A DNA stretch of 64,000 bases from NCBI RefSeq assembly GCF_004152845.1, contig NZ_SEON01000006.1:186001-250000 (forward strand). Direction: 5' to 3'. Source of the stretch: Sphingobium fuliginis (GTDB lineage: Bacteria > Pseudomonadota > Alphaproteobacteria > Sphingomonadales > Sphingomonadaceae). Of this stretch, positions 3,533 through 60,918 are shown piece by piece. Positions within the stretch are counted from its first letter, which is position 1; every line of letters starts with the position of its first letter. Made by a program: the position numbers and the translations under genes. The notes below the pieces were generated by a model that made no database searches, was not told the DNA's origin, and worked only from the letters and a program-made list of their open reading frames with translations.

Positions 3533-6043
3533 TCAGAAGCGCGCCGAAACGCGCCCATAATAAAAGCCGCCGCTCAGCCCGAACGGCGCGAAATTGCCGT
3601 AGGCGCCCGATCCGTCATAGGCGATCACGCCATGGCGGTCGGGATAGACGTCGAACAGATTGTTCGCGCCGACCGACAGCGTCAGCCGATCGCTGATGTC
3701 ATAGCCGACATCGAGGTCCGCGATCCATTTCGCGCCGAAGCGCCGGTCGCCGGTCGCGACATTGCTCGATTCCACATAGCGGCCGAAGCGGGTCAGCCGC
3801 GCCAGCGCATGCAGGCGGCCCAGCGACCAGTCGTTCGTCAGCACCAGCTTCGTGCGCGGGGTCGCGGCGACGAGGTCGCGCTGCGCCTGGCGCCCGAACA
3901 GGGTGACGTTGAGCGAGGCGAGTTCCGGCGGCGTGTCGACGACATGGGTGATTTTCGTGCGGTTATAGCTATAGGCCGCGTTCAGGCGGAAACTGCCGAG
4001 CGCGCCGGTGCGCAGCGTATATTCCGTCACGACGTCGATGCCGCGCGTGCGGGTGTCGATGGCGTTGGCGAAGAATTGGGCGCTGTCGACATCGTCGATG
4101 CCGTTGGCGACCAGGATGGCGCGGATGGCCGCCCCTCCATTGGCCGCCGTGCCGAGGAATTCGGTCTTGACGATGCGGTCGTCCACCGCGATCTGATAGG
4201 CGTCGACGGTGAGGCGGAACGGGCCGCGCTCAAAGGACAGGCCGGCCGTATAGTTGAGCGACTTTTCCGGCTTGAGCGGGGTGGCGCCCAGCGCCTGCGC
4301 GGCGATGCTGCCGACCGGCAGGAATTTCGATGTGGTGCTGACCCGGTTATTGCCGATGATCGTCGCCGTGTTCTGCGTGGTCGAAAAGCCGCCCTGCGCC
4401 AGCGAGGGAGCGCGGAAGCCGGTGTTGACGCCGCCACGGACGGCAAGGCCGGGCGCGAATTCGTAACGGGTCGAGAATTTGCCCGACACCGTGTCGCCCG
4501 CGCTGTCGTCATAATGTTCGAAGCGCCCGGCGACGCCGACGAACCAGCCGGGCGTCAGGTCGGTCGACAGGTCGACATAGGCGGCGATGTTGTTGCGGCT
4601 GAGCGTCGCCTCGTCCGCCGGAGAGGTTCCGGTGAAGGAAACCAGTCCCGGCGATGGCGACCGCCCGCCATAGGCGTTGCCGAAGGGCGTTCCGTCGGCG
4701 GGGATCACATAGCCGCCGTCGCGATAGCTGTCCGGCTCCCCCGCGCGGTTGCGGAACTTCTCCCAGCGATGCTCGAACCCGATGGCCACGTCGAGCGGAC
4801 GGGCCGTGCCGATGTCGTAGCCGCGGGTGAATTCCAGATTGTTGACCCAGAGGTCCTGTATCTGCTTGCCCATGAAGAAGCTTGTCGGGCTGGACGGGCC
4901 GAGCGAAGGGTTGAGGGTGCCTTCGGCGCCCAGCTTCACATGGTCGCGCCCATAGCTGGTGGAGAGGTCGAACGACCAGCCTGCCGTCAGATCGCCGCGC
5001 AGGCCGATGGCGGATTGCCAGTCCCATTCCTTGATGCGCCGGCGCGCCTGGAAGCCGGAGGGATAGAGGCCGGGAAGGGATGTCTGGCCCTGCACATTCG
5101 CCTGCCCGCCATAGCCGGTGGTCGCCGGGAAGATCGCGCCGCGCTTGTCATCGATGTCGCGATAGCTGAGGGTGGAAAAGCTGTAGGCGGTCAGCGCGCC
5201 GAGGGGCAGTTCGGCATTGACCGATCCGTTGACGATCTTGTCCCGGTTGGACCGGCCATAGCCGCCCGCGATCAGATGATCGGCATGGGTTTCGCGCGGG
5301 TCCGGGGCGCCGTTCACGAAAGGATAGACATAGGGCACGGGTTCGGCGGAGCTGTCGGCGCGGTCGTGATACTTCCCCTCCACGGCGATGCGGACGAAGC
5401 CGTCGCCGCTGATGCGGGTGCCGTAGCTTAGCCCCTGCTGCACCAGTGCGCCGCCCTTTTCGTAAAGCTGCCCGGCGGTGGCTGAGAAGGAGCCGCCCTC
5501 CGGCGCGTCGTCCAGCAGGATGTTGATGACGCCGGAAATCGCGTCCGACCCATATTGGGCGGCGGCGCCGTCGCGCAGCACCTCGATCCGGCCCACGGCG
5601 TTGGTGGGGATGAGGTCGATGTCGACCGGGGTGGAACCGCCCGATATGCGCGAAAGGTTATTGATGAGCGCGGTCGTGTGCCGCCGCTTTCCATTGACCA
5701 GCACCAGCAGATAATCGCCCGATAGGCCCCGGATGGAGATGGGGCGCACGCTGGCCGAGGTGCCGCCGCCGCCCAGCGCCGGCATGGTGAGGGAGGGGAT
5801 GATGTTGCCCAGCACTTCCTTGAGGCCCGTGCGGCCGGTGGCCTGCAATTCCTGGGGACTGATGACATCGATGGGCACGGGGCTGTCCGCCACCGTCCGT
5901 CCCCCGCCCCGGCGCGTGCCGGTGACGACGATGGCCGATCCGGCGGCTTCCGCATCGTCGGCGGCGGCAAGCTCCTGCGCGGCGGCGAAGGATGGAAGGA
6001 CGGCGCCGGAAAGTGCGGCGCCGGCGAGAAGCAGGCTTTTCAT
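3533..6043 (-). CDS. TonB-dependent receptor of the sulfonate-uptake unit
   Basis: Outer-membrane 22-strand barrel with plug, energised by TonB. The ATG at 6043 is preceded by GAAGGA and begins a signal peptide (MKSLLLAGAALSGAVLPSFA). A TonB-box-like SAIVVTGTRR follows, then the plug domain with VNGKRRH and VLRDGAAAQYGSDAISGVIN. The barrel ends with a terminal phenylalanine (GRVSARF). About 836 aa, normal for the family. It is the last gene of a leftward unit after a TauD-type dioxygenase and an SsuA-like binding protein, which suggests an organosulfur ligand. Two other receptors here (starts 10572 and 59833) share the VNGKRRH/AAQYGSDAIAGVIN plug style and also sit in sulfur contexts. Ligand is inferred only. 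Confidence 0.93.
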   Translation of the reverse strand: MKSLLLAGAALSGAVLPSFAAAQELAAADDAEAAGSAIVVTGTRRGGGRTVADSPVPIDVISPQELQATGRTGLKEVLGNIIPSLTMPALGGGGTSASVRPISIRGLSGDYLLVLVNGKRRHTTALINNLSRISGGSTPVDIDLIPTNAVGRIEVLRDGAAAQYGSDAISGVINILLDDAPEGGSFSATAGQLYEKGGALVQQGLSYGTRISGDGFVRIAVEGKYHDRADSSAEPVPYVYPFVNGAPDPRETHADHLIAGGYGRSNRDKIVNGSVNAELPLGALTAYSFSTLSYRDIDDKRGAIFPATTGYGGQANVQGQTSLPGLYPSGFQARRRIKEWDWQSAIGLRGDLTAGWSFDLSTSYGRDHVKLGAEGTLNPSLGPSSPTSFFMGKQIQDLWVNNLEFTRGYDIGTARPLDVAIGFEHRWEKFRNRAGEPDSYRDGGYVIPADGTPFGNAYGGRSPSPGLVSFTGTSPADEATLSRNNIAAYVDLSTDLTPGWFVGVAGRFEHYDDSAGDTVSGKFSTRYEFAPGLAVRGGVNTGFRAPSLAQGGFSTTQNTATIIGNNRVSTTSKFLPVGSIAAQALGATPLKPEKSLNYTAGLSFERGPFRLTVDAYQIAVDDRIVKTEFLGTAANGGAAIRAILVANGIDDVDSAQFFANAIDTRTRGIDVVTEYTLRTGALGSFRLNAAYSYNRTKITHVVDTPPELASLNVTLFGRQAQRDLVAATPRTKLVLTNDWSLGRLHALARLTRFGRYVESSNVATGDRRFGAKWIADLDVGYDISDRLTLSVGANNLFDVYPDRHGVIAYDGSGAYGNFAPFGLSGGFYYGRVSARF

Positions 6044-6074
6044 CGGAGATCCTTCGAAATGAAAAAAGAGGGCG

Positions 6075-7088
6075 TCAGTCCCGCCGGGCCAGGGTCGTGG
6101 CGTTGAAGGACGGGTCATAGGCGCCGCGAATGTCGGGCAGCGCGGGGATGATGCCGGCGCGGCGGTAACGGGCAAAGATTTCGGCCTGTTCGCGAACCAG
6201 AGCATCGTTTATCGGTTCCGCCGTGCCGATATAGGCGGTGATGGAGAAGCGGGCGACCTTGAAGGGCAGGCCGGTCTCCTGCGCCAGCGTCCGGGCGAAG
6301 GCGTCGGGATGCGCCGCCGCCCAGCGCCGCGCCCGGCTCAGCCGCGCCAGGAAATCGGCCAGTATCGGCCGCTTGCCGTGGATCGCGGACTCCGATGCCG
6401 CAAAGAAACCCGTCTGGGCGGGAAGGCCGCTGGCATCGGCCAGCACCCGGTCGCCATTTTCCATGACCGCGATGCCGACATAGCTGCCCCAGGTCGACCA
6501 GGCGTCGATCGCGCCGCTTTCCAGCGCCGCTTTGGCCGCGCCGTTGTCGAGATAGGTCCAGCGGACATCGGACGACGCAAGGCCCGCTTGTTCGATCAGG
6601 CGGAGCGCCAGATCCTGCCCGGCCGAACCGCGCACGGTGGCAAGCTTGCGCCCCTTGAGCTGCGCCACGGACCGGACCGGCGAGTCCTTCGGCACGACGA
6701 TGGCGGAGGCGCGGCCAACGCCGGGGCCCTGCGGACGATAGGCGAAGACCGCCTTGATCTTCGCGCCGCCGGCATAGGCGAAGGCGAAGGGCGGAGCGCC
6801 GACGCCCCCCACATCGATCGCGCCCGCCGCCAGCGCCTCCAGCAAGGGAGAGGCTGCCGGAAACTGCGCCCATTCGATCCGGTAGGGCAGATCGTCCAGT
6901 TCGCCGGCGGCGCGCATCAACGCCTGCGCGCCGCCGCGCTGATCCCCGATCTTCAGGACGGGGCGGCCCGGATCGCCCCCGCCATGCGGGCGGAGCGAGG
7001 CGAAGCCGATGGCGGCGAGCGCGATCAGGGCGAAGAGGACGATCCAGGGAAGAAGAACCCTGCGCCGGGAGAGGATGGTGCGCGTCAT
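6075..7088 (-). CDS. SsuA/TauA-type ABC substrate-binding protein (aliphatic sulfonate family)
   Basis: Periplasmic solute-binding protein of the NMT1/SsuA fold, 337 aa. An N-terminal hydrophobic segment (about residues 12-32) is a signal or anchor. The mature part shows the family pattern: LKIGDQRGG, EWAQFPAASPLLEALAAGAIDVG, then KGRKLATVRGSAGQDL and ALESGAIDAWSTWGSYVG. It lies between the TauD-type gene (50 bases upstream) and the TBDR (31 bases downstream) on the same strand, so the three are probably co-transcribed. No ABC permease or ATPase lies next to it, so it must use components encoded elsewhere or work differently. Ligand is probably a sulfonate or related organosulfur compound. 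Confidence 0.9.
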   Translation of the reverse strand: MTRTILSRRRVLLPWIVLFALIALAAIGFASLRPHGGGDPGRPVLKIGDQRGGAQALMRAAGELDDLPYRIEWAQFPAASPLLEALAAGAIDVGGVGAPPFAFAYAGGAKIKAVFAYRPQGPGVGRASAIVVPKDSPVRSVAQLKGRKLATVRGSAGQDLALRLIEQAGLASSDVRWTYLDNGAAKAALESGAIDAWSTWGSYVGIAVMENGDRVLADASGLPAQTGFFAASESAIHGKRPILADFLARLSRARRWAAAHPDAFARTLAQETGLPFKVARFSITAYIGTAEPINDALVREQAEIFARYRRAGIIPALPDIRGAYDPSFNATTLARRD

Positions 7089-7138: not shown

Positions 7139-8002
7139 TCAGAGGTTCGCGTAGAGCGGTTCGTCCGCGATCAGGATGCGTTCCAGCACGCGCGGGAAAT
7201 CGCCATAGTTGCGCACGGCATAGTGAACCGCCGCCCGATTGTCCCAGAAGGCGACCGAGTTGGGACGCCAGGAAAAGCGGACCTGATATTCGGGCCGCTT
7301 ATATTGCCGGACGATCTCCTCCAGCAATTCGCGGCTCTCCGCCAGTTCCACGCCCAATATCTGCGGCCGCTGGGTATAGTTGACCCAGAGGATCTTCTGC
7401 CCGGTTTCGCGATGGGTGCGCACGACGGGATGCGCGACGATGGGATAGTCGTGCCCGGCGCCGACCAGAGCTTCCCGGAAGTCATGGGTGACGTGCAGCC
7501 CCTCCAGCCGCGCCTTGACGTCGTCCGACAGCCCTTCATAGGCGAGATGCGCGTCGACCCAGATGGTGTCCCCGCCGACATCGGGGAGGGTGACGGCGCG
7601 CAGCACGGCGCCCCAGGTCGGCACCAGCCGCCAGCTCGTGTCGCTGTGATAGGCGTCGCCCGGCCTTACGTCCCGATGGATGCGCTTTTCATATCGGGCC
7701 GCGTCGGCCGCCGCGATCTTGTGGATGGGCGCGATCCTGGAATCGGCGGTGGTGCTGGGATGGGTGTAGAGCGGGCCGAAGGCCGCGGCGAAGGCGGCAT
7801 GCTGTTCATTGGTCAGCGGCTGGTCGCGGAAGAACACGACCTTGTAGCGCAACAGGGCGGCGCGGATCGCGTCGCGCTGTCCGGGGGAAAGCGGCCTGCT
7901 GAGATCGACGCCGTCGATTTCGGCGCCGATGGTCGGTTGCAGGGGGCGGATGCCGATGATCCCATCGGCGCGGTCCAGAATATCTGCTGCTGCGGAGGAC
8001 AT
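7139..8002 (-). CDS. TauD/TfdA-family Fe(II)/2-oxoglutarate dioxygenase
   Basis: Members hydroxylate carbon next to sulfonate, sulfate ester or aryloxy groups using 2-oxoglutarate and O2, releasing sulfite or sulfate. With the ATG at 8002 (AAAGG seven bases upstream) the protein is 287 aa. The iron ligands are visible as H119-x-D121 (YHSDTSW) and H260 in FWDNRAAVHYAV. R271/R275 are placed to bind 2-oxoglutarate. It is the first gene of a leftward unit with an SsuA-like protein and a TBDR, which supports a role in sulfur scavenging. The exact substrate (taurine, other sulfonate or alkyl sulfate) cannot be told. An upstream in-frame extension lacks a good ribosome site. Confidence 0.92.
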   Translation of the reverse strand: MSSAAADILDRADGIIGIRPLQPTIGAEIDGVDLSRPLSPGQRDAIRAALLRYKVVFFRDQPLTNEQHAAFAAAFGPLYTHPSTTADSRIAPIHKIAAADAARYEKRIHRDVRPGDAYHSDTSWRLVPTWGAVLRAVTLPDVGGDTIWVDAHLAYEGLSDDVKARLEGLHVTHDFREALVGAGHDYPIVAHPVVRTHRETGQKILWVNYTQRPQILGVELAESRELLEEIVRQYKRPEYQVRFSWRPNSVAFWDNRAAVHYAVRNYGDFPRVLERILIADEPLYANL

Positions 8003-8324
8003 ATCATCACCTTTCAAGGTCGCCGGACGATTTCCGTGCAGGACCATTGCTAAGGGATGGATGCGCCATCGGGTTATGATGATTGGTCGGCATGCTTTGA
8101 ATATCCGAATATTATTGGCAATACTCATCCATGTGGAAATACGGGTCCTTCAATATCATTGCCTTGGCGCAACAATTCATCGGCCCTCCTATTCCAATCA
8201 TTCATGGTTCTTCGGGCAGAGAAAATAACTGTTCGCCGTCCGAAGCCTGTAGATCGGAACGGAAGGAGCGTCGCCACATCCGGTCGGGATCGTGGCAATT
8301 GCCGGAATAACGGAGATCGCGCCG
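8003..8324. other. Divergent intergenic region between the dioxygenase unit and the rightward run
   Basis: A 322-base stretch without a convincing gene, noticeably more AT-rich than the flanks around 8090-8240. It must hold the promoters of the leftward dioxygenase/SsuA/TBDR unit and of the rightward exonuclease-like gene. I see short AATAT-rich repeats near 8100-8115 but no perfect long palindrome and no sigma-54 box. Open frames crossing it in both directions look non-coding. Confidence 0.5.
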
Positions 8325-8974: not shown

Positions 8975-10312
8975 ATGTCCCAGCACCGTCATATCAAGCT
9001 CGGCTTCATCCTGCACGGCGTCGGCCGCACCTGGAACGACTGGCGGCACCCGGGCCGCGACGTCAATGCCAGCACCAGCCTGGCCTTTTACCAGAAGCAG
9101 GCGGCCACCGCCGAACGCGGCAAGTTCGATTTCCTCTTCGTCGCGGACAGCCTGTCGATCACGGAGAAGTCCAGTCCGCATTATCTCAACCGCTTCGAGC
9201 CGATCACCATCCTGTCCGCGCTGGCGGCGACCACATCCCGCATCGGGCTGGTGGGGACGCTGACGGTCAGCTATTCCGAGCCGTTCAACGTCGCGCGCCA
9301 GTTCGCCTCGCTCGACCATCTGAGCGGCGGCCGGGCGGGATGGAACATCGTGACGTCCTGGCTGGGCGATACCGCCGCCAATTTCAGCAAGACCGAGCAT
9401 CCGCCCCATGCCGTGCGCTACCGCATCGCCGGGGAATATCTGGACGTGGTCCAGGGCCTGTGGGACAGCTGGGAGGAGGACGCCCATGTCGCGGACAAGG
9501 AAAGCGGCCAGTTCGTCGATCCGGAGCGGCTCCACCGGCTGGACCACAAGGGCGAGTTCTTCCAGGTGCGCGGGCCGCTCAACATCAAGCGGACGCCGCA
9601 GGGCCAGCCGGTCATCTTCCAGGCGGGCGCTTCGGACGACGGGCGCAATTTCGCGGCGAAGCGGGCGGAGGTCATCTTCACCCATGCCGAGGACGAGGAG
9701 GCGGGCCGGGCCTATTATGCCGATGTGAAGGCGCGGGCCAAGGGTTTCGGCCGCGATCCGCACCAACTGTTCATCCTGCCGGGAATCGCCCCGATCGTCG
9801 GAGAGACGGACGAGGATGCGGAGGCGCGTTATCGCGAACTGGCGTCGCTGGAATCGATCGATACCGGCCTTGGCTTCCTGTCGCGGACCTTCAACGACCA
9901 TGATTTCCGCCAATATGATCTGGACGCGCCCTTCCCGGACGTCGAGCATATCGGCATCAATAGCCAGCAGAGCGCGACGTTGCGGATATTGGCATTGGTG
10001 CGCGCCGAAAAGCTGACCCTGCGGCAAGTGGCCGAAAGGCTGGCGACGCCGCGCGGCGCCTTCGTCGGGTCGCCCGAGACCGTTGCCGACCGGTTGCAGC
10101 AATGGTTCGAAAGCGGCGCCGCCGACGGCTTCGTCGTGTTCGAGCCGCTGCCCGGACAGCTCGACCTGTTCGTCGACAGGGTGATCCCGATCCTGCAGGC
10201 GCGCGGGCTGTTCCGCACCGAATATGAAGGCACCACCTTCCGCGAACATCTGGGCCTTGCCCAGCCGGACAATCGCTACAGCAGCAAAGCGGCCGAAAAG
10301 AGCGCCGCCTGA
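8975..10312 (+). CDS. NtaA/SnaA/DszA-family FMN-dependent monooxygenase (first copy)
   Basis: Bacterial-luciferase-fold monooxygenase of the class that includes DszA (dibenzothiophene sulfone), SnaA and nitrilotriacetate monooxygenase. It needs FMNH2 from a separate reductase. The ATG at 8975 gives 445 aa, the normal length. Typical segments are the N-terminal [51 protein letters not shown], and [21 protein letters not shown] reading frame continuing further upstream overlaps the exonuclease gene and is not used. It precedes a TBDR on the same strand; a second family member starts at 15292. C-S bond cleavage in an organosulfur compound is likely but unproven. Confidence 0.93.
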
Positions 10313-10349
10313 TCGCCCGCGGGCCGACCGCAGGCCGGGCTTTGACGGA

Positions 10350-10372
10350 GGGGAGCGGCAAGGTCGCTCCCC
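10350..10372 (+). terminator. Stem-loop after the first DszA-type gene
   Basis: Perfect 8-bp stem GGGGAGCG/CGCTCCCC with a 7-base loop, 38 bases past the stop codon. It has no T-run after it, so it may be a weak terminator or an mRNA-stabilising hairpin. Confidence 0.4.
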
Positions 10373-10475
10373 CTTGCCGCCGGTCGGATCGCGAACCGGA
10401 ACGGGATCGATCGTCCGGAAATCGCCCTATATTCCGCACCGTTCCATCTATGACGAAAACTCGATTGCCTCAATA

Positions 10476-10494
10476 ATCTACCGATATAGTAGAT
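10476..10494. promoter_or_regulatory. Candidate operator palindrome upstream of the second TBDR
   Basis: ATCTAC-N7-GTAGAT in an AT-rich patch about 80 bases before the TBDR start at 10572. Perfect 6-bp arms with roughly 13 bp between their centres fit a dimeric activator or repressor site. No regulator gene is adjacent, so the cognate protein is unknown. Confidence 0.4.
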
Positions 10495-10571
10495 AATTCA
10501 GCGCAGGGACGGGGCCGAAGCCATGTCCCGCCCGCGCGGATCATGCGACAAATCATAAGCAGGGGGACTTC

Positions 10572-13145
10572 ATGCATTCGGTGAAAATCTGGGCCGGGGC
10601 CGGCGTGGCCCTGGCGGCGGTGGCGCTTGCCCAAGGCGCGCAGGCGCAGCCCGCCGACAATGCGGCGGCGGCGGCCGCGAGTGAACGCGACGCGATCATC
10701 GTCACGGGTACGCGCCGGACGGATCGCACGGTCAGCGAATCCGCCGTGCCGGTGGACGTCTTCAGCGCCGGCGACCTGGCATCGCAGGCGACCAGCGACA
10801 TCAAGGCCGCGATCAAGAATCTGGTTCCCTCCTTCAACCTTCAGCGCAATGCGCTGTTCGACGGATCGGCCTTCGTCCGGCCGCCGACGTTGCGCGGCCT
10901 GCCGCCGGACGAGACGCTGGTGCTGATCAACGGCAAGCGCGTCCACCGTTCCGCGCTGGTGCAGGTGAGCGGCGGGTCGCTCGCCGCCGGGTCGCAGAGC
11001 GCCGACCTGTCGCAGATTCCCGGCGCGGCGGTCCAGAGGGTCGAGGTGTTGCGCGACGGCGCCGCCGCCCAATATGGATCGGACGCGATTGCCGGCGTCA
11101 TCAACTTCGCGCTCAAGAGCAATGCGGAAGGGCTGAGCCTCAACGCACGCTATGGCGAATATTATGAGGGCGACGGGCGCGACATCCAGTTGTCGGGCAA
11201 TTGGGGATTGAAGCTGGGCAATGAAGGCGGCTTCATCAACCTGACCGGCGAATATATCAACGCCCATGACACCAATCGCGCCGTACAGCGTCCGGACGCG
11301 GTGGTTCTGGAAACGCTGGGCTATGACGTCAAGCAGCCGGTGACGAGGTTCGGCAGTCCCGACACCGAAGCCTATCGCTTCTTCGTCAACGCAGAACTGC
11401 CGCTGGGCGACGACGCGCTCTATTTCTTCGGCAATTACGGCTATTCGGATCAGGTCATCGACTTCAACTATCGGCGTCCGATCGCCGTGACGACGACAGG
11501 GCCGGCCGGCAGCCCCTTCACCTTCGGCAAGTCGATTTCGCTCTATTATCTCGACCGCAATGCGGATGGGACATGGAATGCCGATGGGCGGACCTGGAAT
11601 GACGCCAATATCTTTCCCAATGGCTTCACGCCGCGGTTCCGCAGCACCAATACGGACATTTCCGCTGTCGGCGGCTATAAGGGCGAAATCGGCGGACTGC
11701 ATTATGACGCCAGCATCGGTTACGGCCAGAACCGGATCAAATATTATATCAGCGACACGTTCAACCCGTCGCTGGGGCCGGATTCACCGACCGACTTCTA
11801 TGACGGGTCGCTGGAGCAGCGCGAGCTGAACGCCAATCTGGACCTTAGCTATCCGCTGGAGATCGGCCTTGCCAGCCCACTCAACATTGCGGGCGGCTTC
11901 GAATATCGGCGCGAGAGCTTCCTGATCGGCGCGGGCGACGCGGCGTCCTATACGCAGGGCATCTATGCGTCCCAGACGGTGCGGCGCGCCGACGGTTCGA
12001 CCTTCCTCGTCACGCATCCGGTCGGCTCCAACGGCTTTCCCGGCTATGGCCCGACATCGATCGTCGACCGGTCGCGCGCCAGCCAGGCGGCCTATCTGGA
12101 CCTGGAGGTGGACGTGACGCCGCGCTTCACCCTGGGCGGGGCGGTGCGTTACGAACATTATGACGACTTTGGCGGCACCACCAATGTGAAGGCGACGGCG
12201 CGTTATGCGTTCAGCGACGCCATCGCGTTGCGCGGGGCGGCCAGCACCGGCTTCCGCGCGCCCACGCCGGGGCAGCTTTACCTGCGCAACCTTCAGACCT
12301 CCTTCATCGGTACCAATCCGGTGCCGGTGCAGATCGCCACATTGTCGCCCGAAGACGCCGCCGCCAGATATTATGGCGCGACCGCATTGAAGCCCGAGGA
12401 GTCGGTCAATTTCAGCGGCGGTCTTGTCCTGACGCCCACACCGTCCTTCACCATCACGGCGGACTATTATAATATCAAGGTGACGAACCGCATCGGACTG
12501 ACCAGTCGGGTTTCGGTGACGGATGCGGATCGGGTGCAACTGGCCGCGCTGGGCGTGGTCGATCCCAATTCGCTGGGCGCGGTCCAATATTTCACCAATG
12601 GTTTCGGCACCCGGACCCAGGGCGTGGACTTTGTAGCGAATTATCGGGCGAATACGGGCTGGGGCAAGTTGGGATCGTCGCTGGCGGTCAATTACAACCG
12701 TACGAAGCTCAGCTATCGCCGGACCATCACCTTGCCGGGCGGACGGTCCCTGCAACTGATCGACGACGAGCGCAAGCGCGACATCGAGACGCTGCTGCCC
12801 CGCTGGCGCGGCGTGTTCACCCAGACGGCGGAGGCAGGACCGGTCGATGTCGTCGCCCGCGCCAATTATTTCAGCAAGTTCACCAATAACCAGCTTGCCT
12901 CCAATGGCGGGAACAAGACTTTCGGCGCGGAAGTCTCCTTCGATCTGGAGGTCGGCGTGAAAGTCGCGGACAAGTTCCGGATCGCCGTGGGCGGGGAGAA
13001 TATCTTCGACAATTATCCCGACCGCGAGACCCGGCTGCTCTATCCTTCCACCGGCGCTCCGGCGAGCGGGTTCGTCTATCCCGACGCCTCGCCGCTCGGC
13101 GTGCTGGGCGGCTTCTGGTATCTCCGTGTCTCGGCGGAGCTTTAA
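10572..13145 (+). CDS. TonB-dependent receptor of the amine-oxidase/RidA/DszA run
   Basis: Outer-membrane TonB-gated receptor, 857 aa, starting at the ATG at 10572 behind AGGGGG. A signal peptide ends at GAQAQ, followed by DAIIVTGTRR near the mature N-terminus. The plug carries INGKRVHRSALV and VLRDGAAAQYGSDAIAGVIN. The long beta-barrel shows GFRAPTPGQLYLRN and NIFDNYPDRE. It ends in RVSAEL rather than an aromatic residue, which is slightly unusual for outer-membrane insertion. It leads a tightly packed rightward run (amine oxidase, RidA, DszA-type, AprA-like, AprB-like), so its ligand is probably the substrate of those enzymes, perhaps an amino-containing organosulfur compound. That ligand is inference. 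Confidence 0.93.
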   Translation: MHSVKIWAGAGVALAAVALAQGAQAQPADNAAAAAASERDAIIVTGTRRTDRTVSESAVPVDVFSAGDLASQATSDIKAAIKNLVPSFNLQRNALFDGSAFVRPPTLRGLPPDETLVLINGKRVHRSALVQVSGGSLAAGSQSADLSQIPGAAVQRVEVLRDGAAAQYGSDAIAGVINFALKSNAEGLSLNARYGEYYEGDGRDIQLSGNWGLKLGNEGGFINLTGEYINAHDTNRAVQRPDAVVLETLGYDVKQPVTRFGSPDTEAYRFFVNAELPLGDDALYFFGNYGYSDQVIDFNYRRPIAVTTTGPAGSPFTFGKSISLYYLDRNADGTWNADGRTWNDANIFPNGFTPRFRSTNTDISAVGGYKGEIGGLHYDASIGYGQNRIKYYISDTFNPSLGPDSPTDFYDGSLEQRELNANLDLSYPLEIGLASPLNIAGGFEYRRESFLIGAGDAASYTQGIYASQTVRRADGSTFLVTHPVGSNGFPGYGPTSIVDRSRASQAAYLDLEVDVTPRFTLGGAVRYEHYDDFGGTTNVKATARYAFSDAIALRGAASTGFRAPTPGQLYLRNLQTSFIGTNPVPVQIATLSPEDAAARYYGATALKPEESVNFSGGLVLTPTPSFTITADYYNIKVTNRIGLTSRVSVTDADRVQLAALGVVDPNSLGAVQYFTNGFGTRTQGVDFVANYRANTGWGKLGSSLAVNYNRTKLSYRRTITLPGGRSLQLIDDERKRDIETLLPRWRGVFTQTAEAGPVDVVARANYFSKFTNNQLASNGGNKTFGAEVSFDLEVGVKVADKFRIAVGGENIFDNYPDRETRLLYPSTGAPASGFVYPDASPLGVLGGFWYLRVSAEL

Positions 13146-13149
13146 GGGC

Positions 13150-14667
13150 GTGGCGTCGCTCGACCGGCGCGCCCTGCTCCGGTCGCTGGGCGGCGCCACG
13201 CTCGCGGCGGCGCTTCCCGCTCCGGTCGTTGGTGCGACCCGGACGGACGGGGTGGGGAGCGTCGTTATCCTGGGCGCGGGCATCGCCGGGCTGGTCGCCG
13301 CAAGGGAACTGGAGCAACGCGGCGTCGACGTCACCGTGCTGGAGGCGCGCGAGCGCGTCGGCGGGCGGGTGTGGACGCTGCGCGGCGGCGACAGCTTCAC
13401 CGACACAGACGGGACGACGCAGCGGGTCGGCTTTGGCGACGGGCTGTACCTGAATGCGGGCGCGGCGCGGATTCCCAGCCATCATGACGGCGTTCTGGGC
13501 CTCTGCAGGGACCTGCATGTGCCGCTGGAGGTGCTGGTGAACAGCAGCCGCAGCGCCTTCATCGCGGATGCGGACGGGCCGCTGCGGCTGCGGCAGGCGG
13601 CGAACGACCTGCGCGGGCATCTGTCCGCCCTGCTGGAAAAGGGACTGCGCGCCGGGTCGTTCGACCAGACGATCGATGCGCCGACGCGCAAGGCGCTGGA
13701 AAGCTTCCTCACCGGCTATGGCGACCTTGCGGCGGACGGCCATTATGGCGGCAGCGCGCGGTCGGGGCTGGCGCGCCCGCCGGGCGCGTTCGACGAGGTG
13801 CAGCAGGCGGTGGCGCCGCGAACGCTCGACCAGTTGCTCGCCAATCCCAATCTGGCGGGCCTGCTGTTCGAGGAAGAGATCTACATGCAGGCGACCATGC
13901 TGGCGCCCGTCGGCGGCATGGACCGGATTCCCCGCGCGCTGGCCGCATCGCTGCGCAGGCCCGTCGTCACCGGGGCGGACATAGTGGAGGTCAGGCGGGC
14001 CGGCGCGGGCGTCGGCATCGTCTGGCGCGATGCGAAGGGCGGCGCGCAGGTCGTGCGGGCCGACCGCGCCATCATCACCCTGCCCCTGCCGGTGCTGGCG
14101 GGCATCAAGGGCGATTTCAGCGCGCCCGTGAAGCGGGCGATAGCCGCCGCTCATTATCAGGATACGGTCAAGGTCGCCTTCCAGAGCCGTCCCTTCTGGG
14201 AAGAGCAGCAGGTTTATGGCGGCCTGTCCTTCGTCGGCGGCGAAACCTCCGTCATCTGGTATCCGTCCGACCGTTTCCAGCAGCCGCAGGCGGTCCTGCT
14301 CGCCGCCTATATGGCATTGGACGCGGCGAAGAGCTTTGCCGCGCGGCCGATCCCGGAGCAGATCGCGCTGGCCCGCGCCGCAGTCGATCGCATCCATCCC
14401 GGCCATGGCGCGGACCTGCAATCCCCGGTCGTCGTCAACTGGCGCAAGACGCCCCATAATCTGGGGCCCTGGCTGGACTGGCATGCGGACGGCAACAGCC
14501 TGGACGATTTTCGCCTGCTCAACCAGCCCGATGGCCCTTTCCTGTTCGCGGGCAGCCATTTGTCCCAATATTCGGGCCATTGGCAGGAAGGCGCGGTGCT
14601 TTCCGCCCGGCGCGCCGCCGATGCTCTGGTACCGTCGCCCGCAAACGTCACCCCCCGTCACGCCTGA
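13150..14667 (+). CDS. Exported flavin-containing monoamine oxidase family protein
   Basis: FAD enzyme that oxidises amines to imines with H2O2 release. I use the GTG at 13150, directly after AAGGG and 4 bases past the TBDR stop; a GTG at 13126 is also possible. The N-terminus has a twin-arginine-like signal (DRRALLRSLGGATLAAALPAP), so the enzyme is probably exported folded. The Rossmann motif GAGIAG and the ARERVGGR segment follow. Near the C-terminus is the family FAD-binding stretch GSHLSQYSGHWQEGAVLS. About 505 aa, usual length. It sits between a TBDR and a signal-peptide-bearing RidA, so a periplasmic amine-oxidation step is likely. Substrate unknown. Confidence 0.88.
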   Translation: MASLDRRALLRSLGGATLAAALPAPVVGATRTDGVGSVVILGAGIAGLVAARELEQRGVDVTVLEARERVGGRVWTLRGGDSFTDTDGTTQRVGFGDGLYLNAGAARIPSHHDGVLGLCRDLHVPLEVLVNSSRSAFIADADGPLRLRQAANDLRGHLSALLEKGLRAGSFDQTIDAPTRKALESFLTGYGDLAADGHYGGSARSGLARPPGAFDEVQQAVAPRTLDQLLANPNLAGLLFEEEIYMQATMLAPVGGMDRIPRALAASLRRPVVTGADIVEVRRAGAGVGIVWRDAKGGAQVVRADRAIITLPLPVLAGIKGDFSAPVKRAIAAAHYQDTVKVAFQSRPFWEEQQVYGGLSFVGGETSVIWYPSDRFQQPQAVLLAAYMALDAAKSFAARPIPEQIALARAAVDRIHPGHGADLQSPVVVNWRKTPHNLGPWLDWHADGNSLDDFRLLNQPDGPFLFAGSHLSQYSGHWQEGAVLSARRAADALVPSPANVTPRHA

Positions 14668-14684
14668 AAGAAGGAGTTTCCATC

Positions 14685-15191
14685 ATGTCCCATCCCCTCA
14701 TCCGTCCCCTCGCCGCGCTGGGCCTGCTGGTCGGCGGCGCCGGCAGCGCCCACGCCGCGTCGGAGGTCGTCCGGCATGGCGCCGAGGGCCCATCGCCCAT
14801 ATTGACCGGCGTGACCGTGCCCGCCGGGGCGGAGACGCTCTATCTGAGCGGGCAGGTGCCGCCCGTGGCCGACAAGGCGGCCGACCCCACGACACCCGCC
14901 GCCTATGGCGACACGCGGACGCAGACGGTCGGCATCTTCCGCAAGATCGAGGCGCTGCTGGCGGCACAGGGTTATGGCCTGCAGGACGTGGTCAAGCTGA
15001 CCGTCTTTCTGGTGGGCGATCCCAAGCTGGGCGGAAAGCAGGATTTCAAGGGATTTTCCGAAGGCTACGCCCAGTTCTTCGGCACGGCGGCGCAGCCCAA
15101 CAAGGTCGCCCGGTCGACGGTGCAGGTCGCCGCTCTCGCCAATCCGGGCTTTCTGGTCGAGATCGAGGCGGTCGCCGTCAAGGCGAAATAA
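14685..15191 (+). CDS. RidA/YjgF-family protein with a signal peptide
   Basis: RidA proteins hydrolyse reactive enamines and imines to ketones and ammonia. The ATG at 14685 has an ideal AAGGAG and gives 168 aa, longer than cytosolic RidA (~130) because of an N-terminal signal peptide (MSHPLIRPLAALGLLVGGAGSAHA). The core shows LYLSGQVPP, the ...KIEALLAAQGYGLQDVVKLTV-type helix, and ARSTVQVAAL with the arginine that binds the substrate carboxylate. It lies 17 bases after the amine oxidase. A periplasmic imine-producing oxidase followed by a periplasmic imine deaminase is a coherent pair. Role is inferred from family and location. Confidence 0.9.
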   Translation: MSHPLIRPLAALGLLVGGAGSAHAASEVVRHGAEGPSPILTGVTVPAGAETLYLSGQVPPVADKAADPTTPAAYGDTRTQTVGIFRKIEALLAAQGYGLQDVVKLTVFLVGDPKLGGKQDFKGFSEGYAQFFGTAAQPNKVARSTVQVAALANPGFLVEIEAVAVKAK

Positions 15192-15291
15192 GCGGTTCCG
15201 TTCAGAAGCTTCAAACAGCCTATGAGAAGGCCTCGTTGGTCACTGTCCCACCGCCTGGTCTAGACTTTTCCCATATTCGGAGGATTTGGAC

Positions 15292-16635
15292 ATGGCGGAC
15301 ACGGCGCAGCGGCAATTGCATCTTGGCGCGATATTGGAAGGGGTCGGGGCGGATCATGTCAGTTGGCTCGACCCCGAGCTGCCGGGCGACGCCAGCATCG
15401 ACATCGACTGGTATATCGACAATGCCCGGGCGGCGGAGGCGGCGAAGTTCGACCTGGTCTTCATCGTGGATTCGCCCTTCATCACGCCCGATACCGCGCC
15501 GCATTTCCTGAACCGGCTGGAGCCGCTGACCCTGCTGTCGGCGGTGGCGGCGTCGACGTCGCGCATCGGGCTGGTGGGCACGCTCACCACCTCTTACTGG
15601 GAGCCCTATAATGTCGCGCGGCAATTCGGGTCGCTCGACCAGATCAGCCGGGGCCGGGCCGGATGGAATGTCGTCACCACCGGGCTGGAGGGCGCCGCCC
15701 GCAATTATGGGCGGGAGGAGCATTTCGACCACAAGCTGCGCTATGCCCGCGCCCGCGAATTCGTCGATGTGGTGCAGGGCCTGTGGGACAGTTATGAGGA
15801 CGACGCCTTCCCCCGCGACCGCGAGGCGGGCATTTTCCTGGACAAGGCCAAGCAGCACCGGCTGGACCACAAGGGCGCGCATTTTTCGGTCGCCGGGCCG
15901 CTGGCGCTCAGCCGGTCGCCGCAGGGACAGCCGGTGATCTTCCAGGCAGGGGACAGCAATGAGGGCCGCAACCTGGGCGCGGCCATTGCCGAGGGCACCT
16001 TCACCAGCGCGGAGGATTTCGAGACCGGGCGGGCCTATTATGCGGACATCAAGGCGCGGGCGGCGGCGCTGGGGCGCAATCCCGACCTGATCAAGGTGCT
16101 GCCCGGACTGGCGCCGATCATCGCAGAGACCGACGAAGAGGCGCAGGCCATCGCCGCGGCCGCGCAGGAAGCGCTCGACGTCGGCAAGCTGCTGGTGCAG
16201 ATCGGGCGGGCGTTCAACTATCACGACTTTTCCCGCTACGATCTGGACGCGCCCTTCCCCGACCTGAGCGGCGTCACGCTGAACAGCTACAAGGGCCATG
16301 CCGAACGGATCATCCGCGTGGCGCGGGAGGAAGGGCTGACGCTGCGCCAGGCGGCCTATCGCTTCGGCCAGTGGCGGACGGACTTCGTGGGATCGCCCGA
16401 GACCATAGCGGACGAAATCGAGCGCTGGTTCACCGGGCGCGCCGCCGACGGTTTCCTGCTGCGAGTGACGCGGCCCAAGGATTTCAGGCTGTTCCGGGAG
16501 CGGGTCGTGCCGATCCTGCAGGCGCGCGGATTGTTCCGCGACGATTATGCGCACCGCACCTTGCGCGGACATCTGGGCCTGCCGGTTCCGGAAAACCGGC
16601 ATGCGCGGGAACAGCACGCGATCGCCGCGGAATGA
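15292..16635 (+). CDS. NtaA/SnaA/DszA-family FMN-dependent monooxygenase (second copy)
   Basis: Second luciferase-fold monooxygenase, 447 aa from the ATG at 15292 behind GGAGG. It has the same landmarks as the copy starting at 8975: [49 protein letters not shown] and a FGQWRTDFVGSPETIADEIE tail. The two are clearly related but diverged, which suggests different substrates or successive steps rather than a recent duplication. Its stop overlaps the start of the AprA-like gene by four bases (ATGA), so translation is coupled. A flavin reductase is required and none is visible nearby. Confidence 0.93.
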   Translation: MADTAQRQLHLGAILEGVGADHVSWLDPELPGDASIDIDWYIDNARAAEAAKFDLVFIVDSPFITPDTAPHFLNRLEPLTLLSAVAASTSRIGLVGTLTTSYWEPYNVARQFGSLDQISRGRAGWNVVTTGLEGAARNYGREEHFDHKLRYARAREFVDVVQGLWDSYEDDAFPRDREAGIFLDKAKQHRLDHKGAHFSVAGPLALSRSPQGQPVIFQAGDSNEGRNLGAAIAEGTFTSAEDFETGRAYYADIKARAAALGRNPDLIKVLPGLAPIIAETDEEAQAIAAAAQEALDVGKLLVQIGRAFNYHDFSRYDLDAPFPDLSGVTLNSYKGHAERIIRVAREEGLTLRQAAYRFGQWRTDFVGSPETIADEIERWFTGRAADGFLLRVTRPKDFRLFRERVVPILQARGLFRDDYAHRTLRGHLGLPVPENRHAREQHAIAAE

Positions 16636-18224
16636 CGGAGGAAGGGATCGACCTTCAGGCCGACGTGCTGATCATTGGCGGCGGCATGGCTGCCTGCTGG
16701 GCGGCGATCGCCGCGGCGCAGGCGGGCGCCGACGTGCTGCTAGTCGACAAGGGATTCGTCGGCACCAGCGGCGTCACGGCGACGGGCGGCCCCAATCACT
16801 GGTGGGTCGCCCCCGAACCCGGCAAGCGCGAAGCCGCCGTCGAGGAACGCCATGCGCGCAGCTTCGGACTGGCCGAGCGGCACTGGATGGCGCGCATCAT
16901 CGAGGAAAGCTGGATCGCCCTGCCCACGCTCGCCCGCTATTATCCCTTTGGCGGCGACGGCAGGGGCGGCACCTTCTATCCCGGCGTCCGCGGTCCGGAA
17001 TATATGCGCGCGCTGCGGCGCTACGCGACCGATGCGGGGGTCCGTATCCTCGACCATCATCCGGCGCTGGAACTGCTGGTGCATGACGACGGATCGGTCG
17101 CGGGCGCGGCCGGGCATGGGCGCCTGACGGGGCAATCATGGCGGGCCCGGGCGGGCGCCGTGATCATGGCGACGGGCGGATGCGCCTTCCGTTCCGGGCT
17201 GATCGGCAGCCATGGCAATACCGGCGACGGGCTGCTGATGGCGGCGGAGGCGGGCGCCGCGCTGTCCGGCATGGAATTTTCCGTTTCCTATTCCCTCTCC
17301 CCCGCGTGGAACTCGACACGCACCCTGCCCTATTTCGCCGCGCGCTTCTTCGACCAAGACGGCCGGGAACTGGACATTCCGCCGCCCATAGGCGGGGAAG
17401 GCGCGCATCTGAGGGCACTGGCGAGCGCCATGCTGGCCGGGCCGGTCATCGCCGACCTCAGCGATGCGCCGGACGGGTTGAAGCCGATATTGCGGCGCAT
17501 CCAGCCCGCCTCCCCCACGCCGTTCGAGCGGCGCGGGCTGGATATTTTCCGGGACCGGTTCGAGATCAAGCTGTTCGGGGAAGGCACGGTGCGGGGGACC
17601 GGCGGGTTGCAGGTCGTGGACGCGCATTGCCAGACGAGCCTGTCCGGACTCTATGCCGCCGGCGACAGCGCGACCCGGGAACTGGTCGCCGGGGCGACGA
17701 GCGGCGGCGGCGCGCAAAATGCCGCCTGGGCGCTGACCTCCGGCCGGATCGCCGGTGCGGCCGCGGCGGCACGGGCGAAGCGCGACGGGCGGCGTCTGGG
17801 CGCGGCGGCGCGGGCCGTCGGCCAGGCGGGGTTGCGCCCGGCCGCTTCCCCGCGCCCGGTCGATCTGAAGGCGGTCCTGCCGGTCGTTCAGCATGCCACC
17901 ATCGGTTATGACGACGCCCTTTGGCGCAGCGCGCCCAAGCTGGCGCGGGCGCGTGACGCGCTGGACGGCGCGTGGCGCTTGCTGGCCGATCATGACCAGG
18001 GCGTGGGGCTGGACAGGGGCGGGCTGCGCGAACATGCCGCGATGATCGCCGCTGCGCGCTGGGTGACCGCGGCCGCCCATAGACGCGACGAGAGCCGGGG
18101 CATGCATATGCGTGCGGACCGCCCCGCGACGGACGCCGCGCTTGCCAGCCGCCTGCTGACCGGCGGCACCGACAAGGTCTGGACCCGTTTCGAAACCCCC
18201 GCCTTGCAGGAAGCCGCCGCATGA
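16632..18224 (+). CDS. AprA-like flavoprotein of the fumarate reductase/succinate dehydrogenase superfamily
   Basis: FAD-dependent oxidoreductase, 530 aa. The start at 16632 overlaps the monooxygenase stop. The N-terminal FAD motif is VLIIGGGMAACWAA followed by LLVDKG; TSGVTATGGPNHWW and VIMATGGCAF are the covalent-flavin-free AprA/FrdA style, and LYAAGDSATRELVAGATSGGG is the C-terminal FAD loop. An AprB-like ferredoxin follows with a four-base overlap, reproducing the AprA-AprB order of adenylylsulfate reductase. Sphingomonads are not dissimilatory sulfate reducers, so a different reaction is likely, perhaps on a sulfur intermediate released by the monooxygenases. Family assignment is firm; function is open. 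Confidence 0.85.
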   Translation: MTEEGIDLQADVLIIGGGMAACWAAIAAAQAGADVLLVDKGFVGTSGVTATGGPNHWWVAPEPGKREAAVEERHARSFGLAERHWMARIIEESWIALPTLARYYPFGGDGRGGTFYPGVRGPEYMRALRRYATDAGVRILDHHPALELLVHDDGSVAGAAGHGRLTGQSWRARAGAVIMATGGCAFRSGLIGSHGNTGDGLLMAAEAGAALSGMEFSVSYSLSPAWNSTRTLPYFAARFFDQDGRELDIPPPIGGEGAHLRALASAMLAGPVIADLSDAPDGLKPILRRIQPASPTPFERRGLDIFRDRFEIKLFGEGTVRGTGGLQVVDAHCQTSLSGLYAAGDSATRELVAGATSGGGAQNAAWALTSGRIAGAAAAARAKRDGRRLGAAARAVGQAGLRPAASPRPVDLKAVLPVVQHATIGYDDALWRSAPKLARARDALDGAWRLLADHDQGVGLDRGGLREHAAMIAAARWVTAAAHRRDESRGMHMRADRPATDAALASRLLTGGTDKVWTRFETPALQEAAA

Positions 18225-18613
18225 TCGCCCATATCTTCGAAGACCGGTGCACCGCCTGCCAGGCATGCGTTTCGGCCTGCCCCACCCATGTGCTGGATGC
18301 CGGGCCTGATGGCGCGCCCCGGATCGCGCGGCTGGACCAATGCCAGACCTGTTTCCTGTGCGAGCTTCATTGCGAAGCCGACGCGATCTATGTCGGTCCG
18401 GACCAGAGGCAGCCCGAAGCGATCTCGCCAGAGGCGATCCTGGCGTCCGGGCATCTGGGGCGGCTGCGCCACGACCATGGCTGGGACCGGGAGCCGGAGC
18501 CGGGCAGCACGGGCCATTTGCATGACTTCTGGCAGCTGGGCCCGCTGCTGCGCGAAGGCGCCGAGATCGCGGCGCGCCGCTATTCCGAACGCCAGGCGTC
18601 CGACAGGGCGTGA
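18221..18613 (+). CDS. AprB-like 4Fe-4S dicluster ferredoxin
   Basis: Electron-transfer protein of 130 aa translationally coupled to the AprA-like gene. Cluster one is CTACQACVSACP; cluster two is CQTCFLCELHCEADA, giving two 4Fe-4S sites. The C-terminal tail after DAIYVGP is long and ends in a polar helix, like the AprB tail that wraps AprA. It probably shuttles electrons between the flavoprotein and an unknown partner. It is the last gene of the rightward run; a strong inverted repeat follows before the convergent peroxiredoxin gene. Confidence 0.87.
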   Translation: MIAHIFEDRCTACQACVSACPTHVLDAGPDGAPRIARLDQCQTCFLCELHCEADAIYVGPDQRQPEAISPEAILASGHLGRLRHDHGWDREPEPGSTGHLHDFWQLGPLLREGAEIAARRYSERQASDRA

Positions 18614-25319: not shown

Positions 25320-26210
25320 TCACCCACGGCGCGCTTCCCCGTTGCCGACGACTTCGCGAAAGAACAAAGCCAGGCGGTCGCGCGTGCCCTGATCGAGAGA
25401 TTGGGAGAGGAACAGCCGCCTCTCCCAGGTGCCGACCTTGACGATCGGCACCAGGCGGTGTTGGCGATCCAGCCTCTGCACAGTGGAATGCAGCATGATG
25501 ACGGCCCCCGCGCCCTGCGTGGCCAGTTCCACGGCAACCTCGTGATGCTGCACCTCGCTGTGCAAAACCGGTTGCATGACTCCGGCCGATGCGAGCATGC
25601 GCAGTTGGTCGCAGGTTCGCAGCGGCGGAATGTTCCAACTGATGAAGGGGAGCGACTGCAAGCCCCTTAGCTTCGCCTGGTCGCGCAGCTCCCGCGTGGC
25701 GAAGACGAAGGCCGGCTCTGCGAAGATCGGTTCGAACCCGCCTTGCGGATCGGATTGCTCGCGGGAAAATATCGCGCAGTCCAGAATGCCCCGCGCCACC
25801 TGGTCGTCGACGTCCGCCCCAGACGCATTGTGGACGAAATCCAGGGCAATGTCGGCATTCTCCATCAGGAAACGCGGCAGCGCGGGCCGCACATATTCGT
25901 TAAGCAGGAAGGTGCCGATGAAGATGCGCAGCTTCTGCGGCGTCGCCCCGCGGAACAGCCGCCCCAGCTCATGCCCCTTCTGGACGAAGGTCTTGACGCC
26001 TTCCTGGAAGCGTTCGCCTTCGGCTGTCAGGCGCATGCTGCGTCCCGCCCTGCGGTGGAACAGGGTGGCGCCGATCTGCTGTTCCAAGGCGCGCATCTGC
26101 TCGCTGACGGCGGCCTGCGATATGCGCAGATTTTCCGACGCCTGACGGAAAGACTGCGCCCGGCCGACCGCCAGGAAGATTTCCAACTGGCGCGGCGTGA
26201 AACGGAACAT
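25320..26210 (-). CDS. LysR-family transcriptional regulator of the sulfatase module
   Basis: 296 aa from the ATG at 26210 behind GGGAGA. The N-terminal winged helix-turn-helix is canonical (LEIFLAVGRAQSFRQASENLRISQAAVSEQ). The C-terminal substrate-binding domain is of the periplasmic-binding-protein fold and carries the usual dimer interface. It is transcribed away from a TBDR and a sulfatase, so it most likely controls them and itself; a T-N11-A type inverted repeat lies in the shared intergenic region. The coinducer may be a sulfur metabolite or the sulfate ester. It ends convergent to the channel gene. Confidence 0.92.
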   Translation of the reverse strand: MFRFTPRQLEIFLAVGRAQSFRQASENLRISQAAVSEQMRALEQQIGATLFHRRAGRSMRLTAEGERFQEGVKTFVQKGHELGRLFRGATPQKLRIFIGTFLLNEYVRPALPRFLMENADIALDFVHNASGADVDDQVARGILDCAIFSREQSDPQGGFEPIFAEPAFVFATRELRDQAKLRGLQSLPFISWNIPPLRTCDQLRMLASAGVMQPVLHSEVQHHEVAVELATQGAGAVIMLHSTVQRLDRQHRLVPIVKVGTWERRLFLSQSLDQGTRDRLALFFREVVGNGEARRG

Positions 26211-26272
26211 GGCCGATCTCTCCCCCTGCTGCTGCCGCGCCTCTGCGGGCGCTGCACCAGGGTATAGGCTGC

Positions 26273-26292
26273 ACCTTGTCACCGGGCAAGGT
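26273..26292. promoter_or_regulatory. Candidate LysR operator between regulator and TBDR
   Basis: ACCTTG-N8-CAAGGT, perfect 6-bp arms, containing T-N11-A spacing typical of LysR boxes. It lies 63 bases upstream of the LysR start and 92 bases upstream of the TBDR start, a usual position for a divergent LysR site. Confidence 0.5.
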
Positions 26293-26345
26293 CGAGCCCC
26301 ATTGTCCTGCCGCCTCCTTATGGCGACAGTGCCCGGAACAAGCGG

Positions 26346-26364
26346 GGCCGACGGATGATCGGCC
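26346..26364 (+). promoter_or_regulatory. Inverted repeat just upstream of the TBDR ribosome site
   Basis: GGCCGA-N7-TCGGCC directly before the GGAGGGGGAG ribosome site of the receptor gene. It could be an mRNA hairpin in the leader or an operator; the sequence alone does not decide. Confidence 0.3.
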
Positions 26365-26383
26365 AGATCATGGAGGGGGAGAT

Positions 26384-28744: not shown

Positions 28745-28765
28745 CCGGACAGGAGGTTTGACGAC

Positions 28766-31856: not shown

Positions 31857-31925
31857 CTTTGCCCTTCTCCCCTCGCCGGTCCGGCCGTTTCGCCGCTTTC
31901 AGCCCGATCCTAGCGCAATATCCGG

Positions 31926-32984: not shown

Positions 32985-33343
32985 CAGATGCCGGCTCCGT
33001 TCAGGCCGTCGCGGCCAGGCGTGCGGAAGCGCAACGCATCCTTGTGGCTGAGGCCATTGGCCGCGATGCTGGCCTGCATGTCGGGGGCGAAGGCTTCGCC
33101 GTTACGGGTCCAGACGGCGCTGTTCCAGTCGATCCCCGCCCAGTCGGGATGCTGGCCGAAAATCTCCGCCATGGGTCCGGCGATGAAGTGCGCGAAGGGC
33201 AGGTCCGGCGGCAACGGCCAGGCATAGGGGCTGGAAAAGAGCAGATGCCCGTCCCAGCCGGCATAGATGACGCAGGCGCCGTGGAAATTTTCAGCCTTGT
33301 CGGCCGGTTCGAATTCATAGGTGTCGATGGCTTTGACGGCCAT
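32984..33343 (-). CDS. dmpO: Phenol hydroxylase subunit P4
   Basis: 119-aa gamma-type subunit of the (alpha-beta-gamma)2 hydroxylase. The start at 33343 has GGAGAGA upstream. Sequence GYxxxSPYAWPLPPDLPFAHFIAGPM and DWAGIDWNSAVW are typical of DmpO/PhN families. It lies between dmpN (51 bases upstream) and dmpP. No catalytic residues are expected; it stabilises the hydroxylase. Confidence 0.94.
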   Translation of the reverse strand: MAVKAIDTYEFEPADKAENFHGACVIYAGWDGHLLFSSPYAWPLPPDLPFAHFIAGPMAEIFGQHPDWAGIDWNSAVWTRNGEAFAPDMQASIAANGLSHKDALRFRTPGRDGLNGAGI

Positions 33344-33394
33344 GATGTCTCTCCTGGAATATGATCCCTTCCGTGAGGGCGGTGTGGCCGGCTG

Positions 33395-34951: not shown

Positions 34952-34954
34952 GGC

Positions 34955-36219: not shown

Positions 36220-36242
36220 GGGGTCGGTCTCTCCTCTCTTGC

Positions 36243-60917: not shown

Positions 60918-60918
60918 G

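Follow-up and report, generated by a model that had tools for sequence, protein, structure and literature searches.

The window analysed here, 64,000 nucleotides of the Sphingobium fuliginis genome (G000, contig C18, positions 186001-250000), carries seven genes between 8975 and 18613 that are best read as a sulfur-scavenging island into which a module for amino-acid oxidation has been set. This reading is likely, and according to it LLM2, AsfA and AsfB form a desulfonation unit while the receptor, oxidase and RidA genes form a separate module. Judged from sequence, the parts are of known kinds and LLM2-AsfA-AsfB appears to be a known desulfonation system in variant arrangement, with aromatic sulfonates as its probable substrates. 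The seven genes, all on the + strand, were confirmed from the sequence at the positions that the initial annotation had given them.

8975..10312, +, LLM1, NtaA/DmoA-family monooxygenase dependent on flavin mononucleotide (FMN); TIGR03860 557.6 bits (cut-off 279.7)
10572..13145, +, TBDT1, TonB-dependent outer-membrane receptor; PF00593 and PF07715
13126..14667, +, the oxidase, an L-amino-acid-oxidase-type flavoenzyme that carries a twin-arginine motif; PF01593
14685..15191, +, RidA-family protein, probably an imine deaminase, that bears a Sec-like leader; PF01042
15286..16635, + (likely start ATG 15292), LLM2, NtaA/DmoA-family FMN-dependent monooxygenase; TIGR03860 498.7 bits
16632..18224, +, AsfA-like flavoprotein (FAD_binding_2), earlier called AprA-like
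18221..18613, +, AsfB-like 8-Cys ferredoxin with two 4Fe-4S motifs (Fer4 domains), earlier called AprB-like

Layout of the cluster

The receptor and oxidase genes overlap by 20 bases and the oxidase gene (PF01593) lies 17 bases from the RidA gene (PF01042), the two forming a pair of the lao-ridA kind. LLM2 overlaps the AsfA-like gene by four bases, as does the AsfA-like gene the AsfB-like gene; both overlaps had been reported in the initial annotation and are seen in the sequence. Its description of the genes from the receptor onwards as tightly packed holds inside receptor-oxidase-RidA and inside LLM2-AsfA-AsfB and breaks down between RidA and LLM2, where 100 bases intervene. LLM1 is separated from the receptor gene by 259 bases. 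These two looser joints are the same points at which the modules part in relatives. A pattern scan gave terminator-like sites at chance level (5 found against 5.8 expected). Promoter-like sites, which are consensus matches only, numbered 4 against 1.4 expected (standard deviation 1.1); one of them lies at 10450-10477, in the gap before the TBDT1 gene, and the scan gave none in the RidA-LLM2 gap.

The redox pair belongs with AsfA/AsfB

AsfA and AsfB are given as Rmet_4334/5, with asfRAB on CHR2 of C. metallidurans and with six TauD gene tags, in one report (PMC2864759). The AsfA-like protein of the window is 43.5% identical over 517 residues to a CHR2 protein (one strong match, 928.3-929.8 kb), and the AsfB-like protein is 44% identical over 90 residues to the ferredoxin adjoining it. 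Six TauD matches on CHR2 show the order and spacing of the published tags, if the last falls just past the start of the record. A manual interpolation from Rmet_4136 (710 kb) to Rmet_4409 (1004 kb) gives about 923 kb as the position of Rmet_4334, against 928-930 kb for the pair. No second 8Fe-type ferredoxin motif was found at 904-948 kb, and no other ferredoxin was recognised by Pfam among 18 of the 19 open frames listed at 918-938 kb. The CHR2 pair is taken to be AsfA/AsfB, with asfR not seen beside it, and the window pair would then belong with AsfA/AsfB; the sequence compared is that of the CHR2 pair. All eight cysteines are invariant across 16 aligned AsfB-like proteins.

In P. putida S-313 an asfA mutant is described as having lost the use of aromatic sulfonates and kept that of aliphatic ones, in a review (PMC4267179). 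The proposed role of AsfAB in desulfonation follows from this requirement.

A profile of 23 AsfA-like proteins scored best against the chains of complex II and fumarate reductase (116-110 bits), followed by the alpha chain of 3'-phosphoadenosine 5'-phosphosulfate (PAPS) reductase (100 bits), aspartate oxidase (97 bits) and AprA (72 bits, over part of the chain). The pair had been called AprAB-like in the initial annotation; this reflects a resemblance at the superfamily level and not the nearest family, and AsfA/AsfB fits better. Fumarate reductase/succinate dehydrogenase was rejected as an identity: the NRLGG stretch of 7d6v, whose arginine is presumably catalytic, aligns opposite a different stretch of the AsfA profile (aisGgG). 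An AlphaFold2 prediction of the AsfA-like protein, made from three alignment rows, had a mean pLDDT (predicted local distance difference test) of 39.2 and was useless as a model.

Both monooxygenases are NtaA/DmoA-family proteins nearer to YtnJ than to DszA

LLM1 and LLM2 pass TIGR03860 by a wide margin, which places them in the NtaA/DmoA family. The nearest solved relative of LLM1 is YtnJ (YtnJ/MoxC; 545 bits, against 329 for DszA), and LLM2 scores 455 bits with 3sdo, 426 with YtnJ and 251 with DszA. DszA, outscored by YtnJ in both cases and also by 3sdo in that of LLM2, was rejected as the nearest solved relative, and the label "DszA-type" in the initial annotation is too narrow. Both proteins resemble the known monooxygenases of the family (YtnJ/MoxC, 3sdo, DszA, DmoA) in passing the model; DszA is not the nearest of these.

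LLM2-AsfA-AsfB is a conserved unit

Three samples were searched for AsfA-like proteins: 94 Sphingobium genomes, own genome included; 397 other genomes of the phylum (threshold E 1e-50); and 396 other genomes of the family (threshold E 1e-80). Strong matches were present in 12 of the 94 genus genomes, the own included (61-100% identity), in 10 of the phylum sample and in one of the family sample (G606). A contig scan with a single protein as query gave only two close relatives, Sphingobium sp. 15-1 and S. scionense. Thirty AsfA-like loci were examined, including six plasmid records (of 60 matching), CHR2 and G606. The AsfB-like gene adjoins the AsfA-like gene in every one of the 30, in the order A-B in 29; L098, with AsfB-like before AsfA-like, is the sole reversed case.

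Of the 16 sphingomonad loci, 15 have LLM2 immediately upstream of the AsfA-like gene, and the other (G015, L042) has a remnant. In the genus, where LLM2 was counted as present at 75% identity or more and G048, with an incomplete LLM2, as without, 11 genomes carry AsfA-like and LLM2, one AsfA-like alone, six LLM2 alone and 76 neither (Fisher p 2e-9; neither this nor the other co-occurrence test in the genus is corrected for kinship). In a tree of 27 AsfA-like proteins the 13 sphingomonad rows group together with support 100/100 (the set of rows is without L104, L105 and L106). The initial annotation had proposed a search for conservation of the AprA-like/DszA/RidA set: LLM2-AsfA-AsfB is kept in the 15 sphingomonad loci, and the oxidase module is absent from 13 of the 16 LLM2-AsfAB loci.

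G026 and G048 carry LLM1, LLM2 and a redoxin in this order, uninterrupted by the oxidase module or AsfAB, and the redoxin is of the kind that follows AsfB in the window. This order implies that the joints of the window are where the oxidase module and the AsfAB block were inserted or lost.

A gene of PF08883 (DOPA 4,5-dioxygenase family) was observed near LLM2 or AsfAB in G015 (L042, 1921-2601), G068 (L048, 6401-7213) and G014 (L046, 6179-6856); a twin-arginine leader was recognised by eye in the L042 and L048 proteins.

Relation to known desulfonation systems

The window pair resembles asfRABC of P. putida S-313 and asfRAB of C. metallidurans CH34 in having adjacent genes for a flavoprotein and an 8Fe ferredoxin in sulfur-gene surroundings, and it has the identities given above to the CH34 pair, itself named by interpolation. 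In contrast to asfRABC, the window unit has neither asfR nor an ABC transporter, a four-base overlap joins the monooxygenase gene to asfA, and TonB receptors lie near. LLM-ABC-AsfAB runs on plasmids of Pararhizobium gei and Paracoccus yeei (L055, L056) likewise hold a monooxygenase and AsfAB-like genes in one run, but ABC transporter genes stand between them. The monooxygenases of these two runs are 62-65% identical to LLM1 and only 52-55% to LLM2 (for that of Pararhizobium, 65% and 52%).

Several observations weigh against taking LLM2-AsfAB as a version of the Asf system with a separate oxidase module beside it. The CHR2 pair was named by interpolation, with a discrepancy of some five genes, and Pfam recognised no LysR gene (asfR) in the 18 of 19 open frames listed around it. 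The window unit itself is without asfR. It is also without the ABC transporter genes of other AsfA loci: a permease and an ATPase were in the stretch at 12 of 14 non-sphingomonad loci (exceptions L057 and L090), against ABC matches at two of the 14 sphingomonad stretches covered by these queries (L049, L104), a set that excludes L043 and the window. LLM2 occurs without AsfAB in six genus genomes, or seven counting the incomplete LLM2 of G048. Five of the six genus genomes with a close oxidase orthologue have it next to LLM2 or SorAB, and an LLM gene adjoins the oxidase-cytochrome-RidA genes of a Ketogulonicigenium plasmid (L080), though not the modules of L079 and L081; separate modules would call for less contact with sulfur genes than this.

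The oxidase-RidA module and its neighbours

The nearest solved relative of the oxidase is the L-amino acid oxidase 2jae (E 1e-68, aligned 40-497), and those of RidA are the Rid proteins PSPTO3006 and PFL1385. The twin-arginine motif of the oxidase and the Sec-like leader of RidA were recognised by eye, and both proteins may be exported. A lao-cccA-ridA cluster, its oxidase with a twin-arginine leader, is reported from Gluconacetobacter diazotrophicus (PMC5053998); the window module is like it in having an L-amino-acid-oxidase-type enzyme with such a leader beside RidA, but where that cluster has a cytochrome c gene the window module has a TonB receptor. Clustering of Rid genes with amine oxidase genes, and measured imine hydrolysis, are described in PMC4433059. 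The claim that the pathway is undescribed is not supported for its parts: the redox pair is AsfAB-like and the oxidase and RidA are of the known lao-ridA kind.

In the family sample the oxidase matched (E 1e-100 or better) at 25 places in 24 other genomes, of which 19 were fetched; the places left aside were G808, G739 and G778 (match less than 4 kb from the contig start) and the weakest three, G782, G889 and G906. RidA was in the stretch at 18 of the 19, and a TonB receptor stood between oxidase and RidA in 11. LLM1, LLM2, AsfA, AsfB, SorA and SorB gave no match in any of the 19 stretches; the one stretch without RidA, L108, gave a weak match to LLM3. Identity to the window oxidase is 46-56% among these relatives, whose substrate may be a different one. 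Three plasmid loci were opened, of 65 matching records: L080 and L081 have oxidase-cytochrome c-RidA, and L079 has oxidase-receptor-RidA.

Close orthologues (about 78% identity or more) occur in six of the 94 genus genomes. In the own genome, G080 and G068 the neighbour of the oxidase module is LLM2; in G026 and G048 (L074, L076) it is SorA-SorB, which stands between the oxidase/RidA module and methionine-salvage genes. The receptor adjoins the oxidase and RidA in G080, G026, G035 and G068 and is missing from the module of G048. The oxidase gene is interrupted in G068 (L048) and incomplete in G048 (L076), with RidA matched at full length in both. The receptor of G026 is preceded by a SorB-like gene that barely passes a haem-domain model (25.5 bits, cut-off 25.2). 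The SorA proteins of G026 and of G018, where SorAB adjoins LLM2, pass the NCBIfam equivalog (662 and 669 against 600). In the own genome SorA/SorB are on a different contig, without the oxidase module.

Proposed mechanism

In the desulfonation unit LLM2, with reduced FMN (FMNH2) from a reductase encoded elsewhere, would cleave the C-S bond and release sulfite for assimilation, and the AsfA flavoprotein and AsfB ferredoxin may carry electrons to this step. No flavin reductase was seen in the cluster at 8975-18613; the genome carries three PF01613 genes, every one on another contig. LLM1, TauD and the SsuA-like protein would serve other organosulfur sources. In the separate module TBDT1 would import the substrate across the outer membrane, the oxidase would turn an L-amino acid into an imine in the periplasm, and RidA would hydrolyse the imine. 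Expression may be governed by sulfate limitation.

Alternative readings

The initial annotation had combined the genes into a single pathway for an amino-containing organosulfur compound. Spelled out, the receptor would import a substrate such as an L-amino acid that is sulfonated or S-substituted, the periplasmic oxidase and RidA would convert it to a 2-oxo acid, and LLM2-AsfAB would cleave the C-S bond in the cytosol. We regard this as unlikely. It draws on the contiguous order, which the own genome and G080 show unbroken and G068 with one extra gene (PF08883) between RidA and LLM2; on the receptor and RidA remnant before LLM2 in G077, which has no AsfAB there; on the LLM gene at one of the three plasmid oxidase loci opened (L080); and on the five of six genus genomes with the oxidase beside LLM2 or SorAB. 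Oxidase and LLM2 also co-occur in five of the six oxidase genomes against 12 of the 88 others (p 6e-4). Against it, the modules are apart in most of the loci examined: the oxidase module is missing from the 13 LLM2-AsfAB loci noted above, and none of the 19 oxidase stretches of the wider family has LLM1, LLM2, AsfAB or SorAB. The 20 kb stretch that holds the module in G035 gave no match to LLM, AsfAB or SorAB, G026 and G048 keep LLM1-LLM2 elsewhere, and G606 has LLM2-AsfAB and the oxidase genes on separate contigs. The cluster also holds no inner-membrane importer. What stands of the earlier proposal is its organosulfur theme, borne out by the NtaA/DmoA monooxygenases, the AsfAB-like pair, the TauD and SsuA-like genes next door and SorAB beside orthologues; the single pathway keeps in its favour the placing of the oxidase beside LLM2 or SorAB.

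Linkage to two different sulfur systems, once to LLM2 and once to SorAB, suggests a real association of the oxidase module, but in few lineages. These linkages suggest that receptor-oxidase-RidA could have been recruited in Sphingobium to organosulfur use. The oxidase would open an L-amino acid that contains sulfur or is sulfonated (candidates are cysteate, cysteine sulfinate and S-substituted cysteine); LLM2-AsfAB would desulfonate the product, or SorAB would oxidise its sulfite. We hold this to be improbable, to the same degree as the single pathway. If true, the recruited module would represent a new split route for sulfur, periplasmic and cytosolic.

Slightly less probable still is the proposal that the substrates of LLM1 and of LLM2-AsfAB are not sulfonates but thioethers or derivatives of S-alkylcysteine, as in YtnJ/CmoJ-like salvage. 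Both monooxygenases score YtnJ, which we take to be CmoJ, above DszA. The mutant data of P. putida tie asfA to aromatic sulfonates, and SsuA-like and TauD genes lie close by; both points speak against thioethers. CmoJ, a homologue of YxeK and DszA, is described in PMC10863075 as cleaving the C-S bond of alkylcysteine sulfoxides.

That the pair is a true adenosine 5'-phosphosulfate (APS) reductase, or a sulfite-handling enzyme processing the sulfite released, is very improbable: the superfamily resemblance and the match of the AsfA profile to the PAPS reductase alpha chain 8a8o over nearly its whole length agree with it, but complex II and fumarate reductase chains outscore 8a8o, AprA is lower again, and the AprA model NF005331 gave 43.9 bits against a cut-off of 557.

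The favoured reading of a desulfonation unit beside a separate oxidation module corrects a tempting misreading of these genes as an APS-reductase-like pair plus DszA. It describes a compact sphingomonad unit in which a monooxygenase gene is joined to asfAB-like genes. In soil bacteria asfA is the marker gene used to track aromatic desulfonation (PMC4267179, PMC9694294); LLM2-AsfAB is a candidate for the sphingomonad version of asfA-marked aromatic desulfonation. Descriptions of the role of AsfAB go no further than electron transfer, and a unit of three genes that brings its own monooxygenase would be a simple system for testing it. Among the papers listed for searches of one open-access library, titles and abstract openings gave no description of the LLM2-AsfA-AsfB unit, which does not show its absence from print, and asf is not mentioned in the passages of PMC8557817 that were consulted.

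Surroundings of the cluster

The genes at 8975-18613 include neither a regulator nor an ABC transporter gene by family-model searches; PF00528 has its closest match on the contig some 46 kb off, just past the right edge of the window. The neighbouring genes are as follows.

3533..6205, -, TBDT0, TonB-dependent receptor of the TauD-SsuA-like unit; PF00593 and PF07715
6075..7088, -, SsuA-family sulfonate-binding protein; TIGR01728 191.6 bits (cut-off 163.5)
7139..8128, -, TauD-family dioxygenase, divergent neighbour in the sulfur island; PF02668 216 bits
18751..19494, -, AhpC/TSA-type redoxin, convergent with AsfB; PF00578

TBDT0, TauD, SsuA-like and LLM2 are again found together in G007 (L083). 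The redoxin also adjoins LLM1-LLM2 in G026 and G048, both without AsfAB there.

A LysR regulator, a TonB receptor and a sulfatase-family gene lie at 25320-30172, and at 30189-47665 phenol hydroxylase and meta-cleavage genes with an XylR-type sigma-54 activator form a catabolic neighbour of the sulfur genes. A second sulfur-scavenging cluster occupies 55443-63910. It comprises LLM3, which is alkanesulfonate-monooxygenase-like, two NMT1-type binding proteins, a TonB receptor and a protein with three rhodanese stretches, with an ABC ATPase and permease at or past the window edge. LLM3 and the rhodanese protein adjoin AsfAB-like genes in G538 (L090) and in Novosphingobium (L104).

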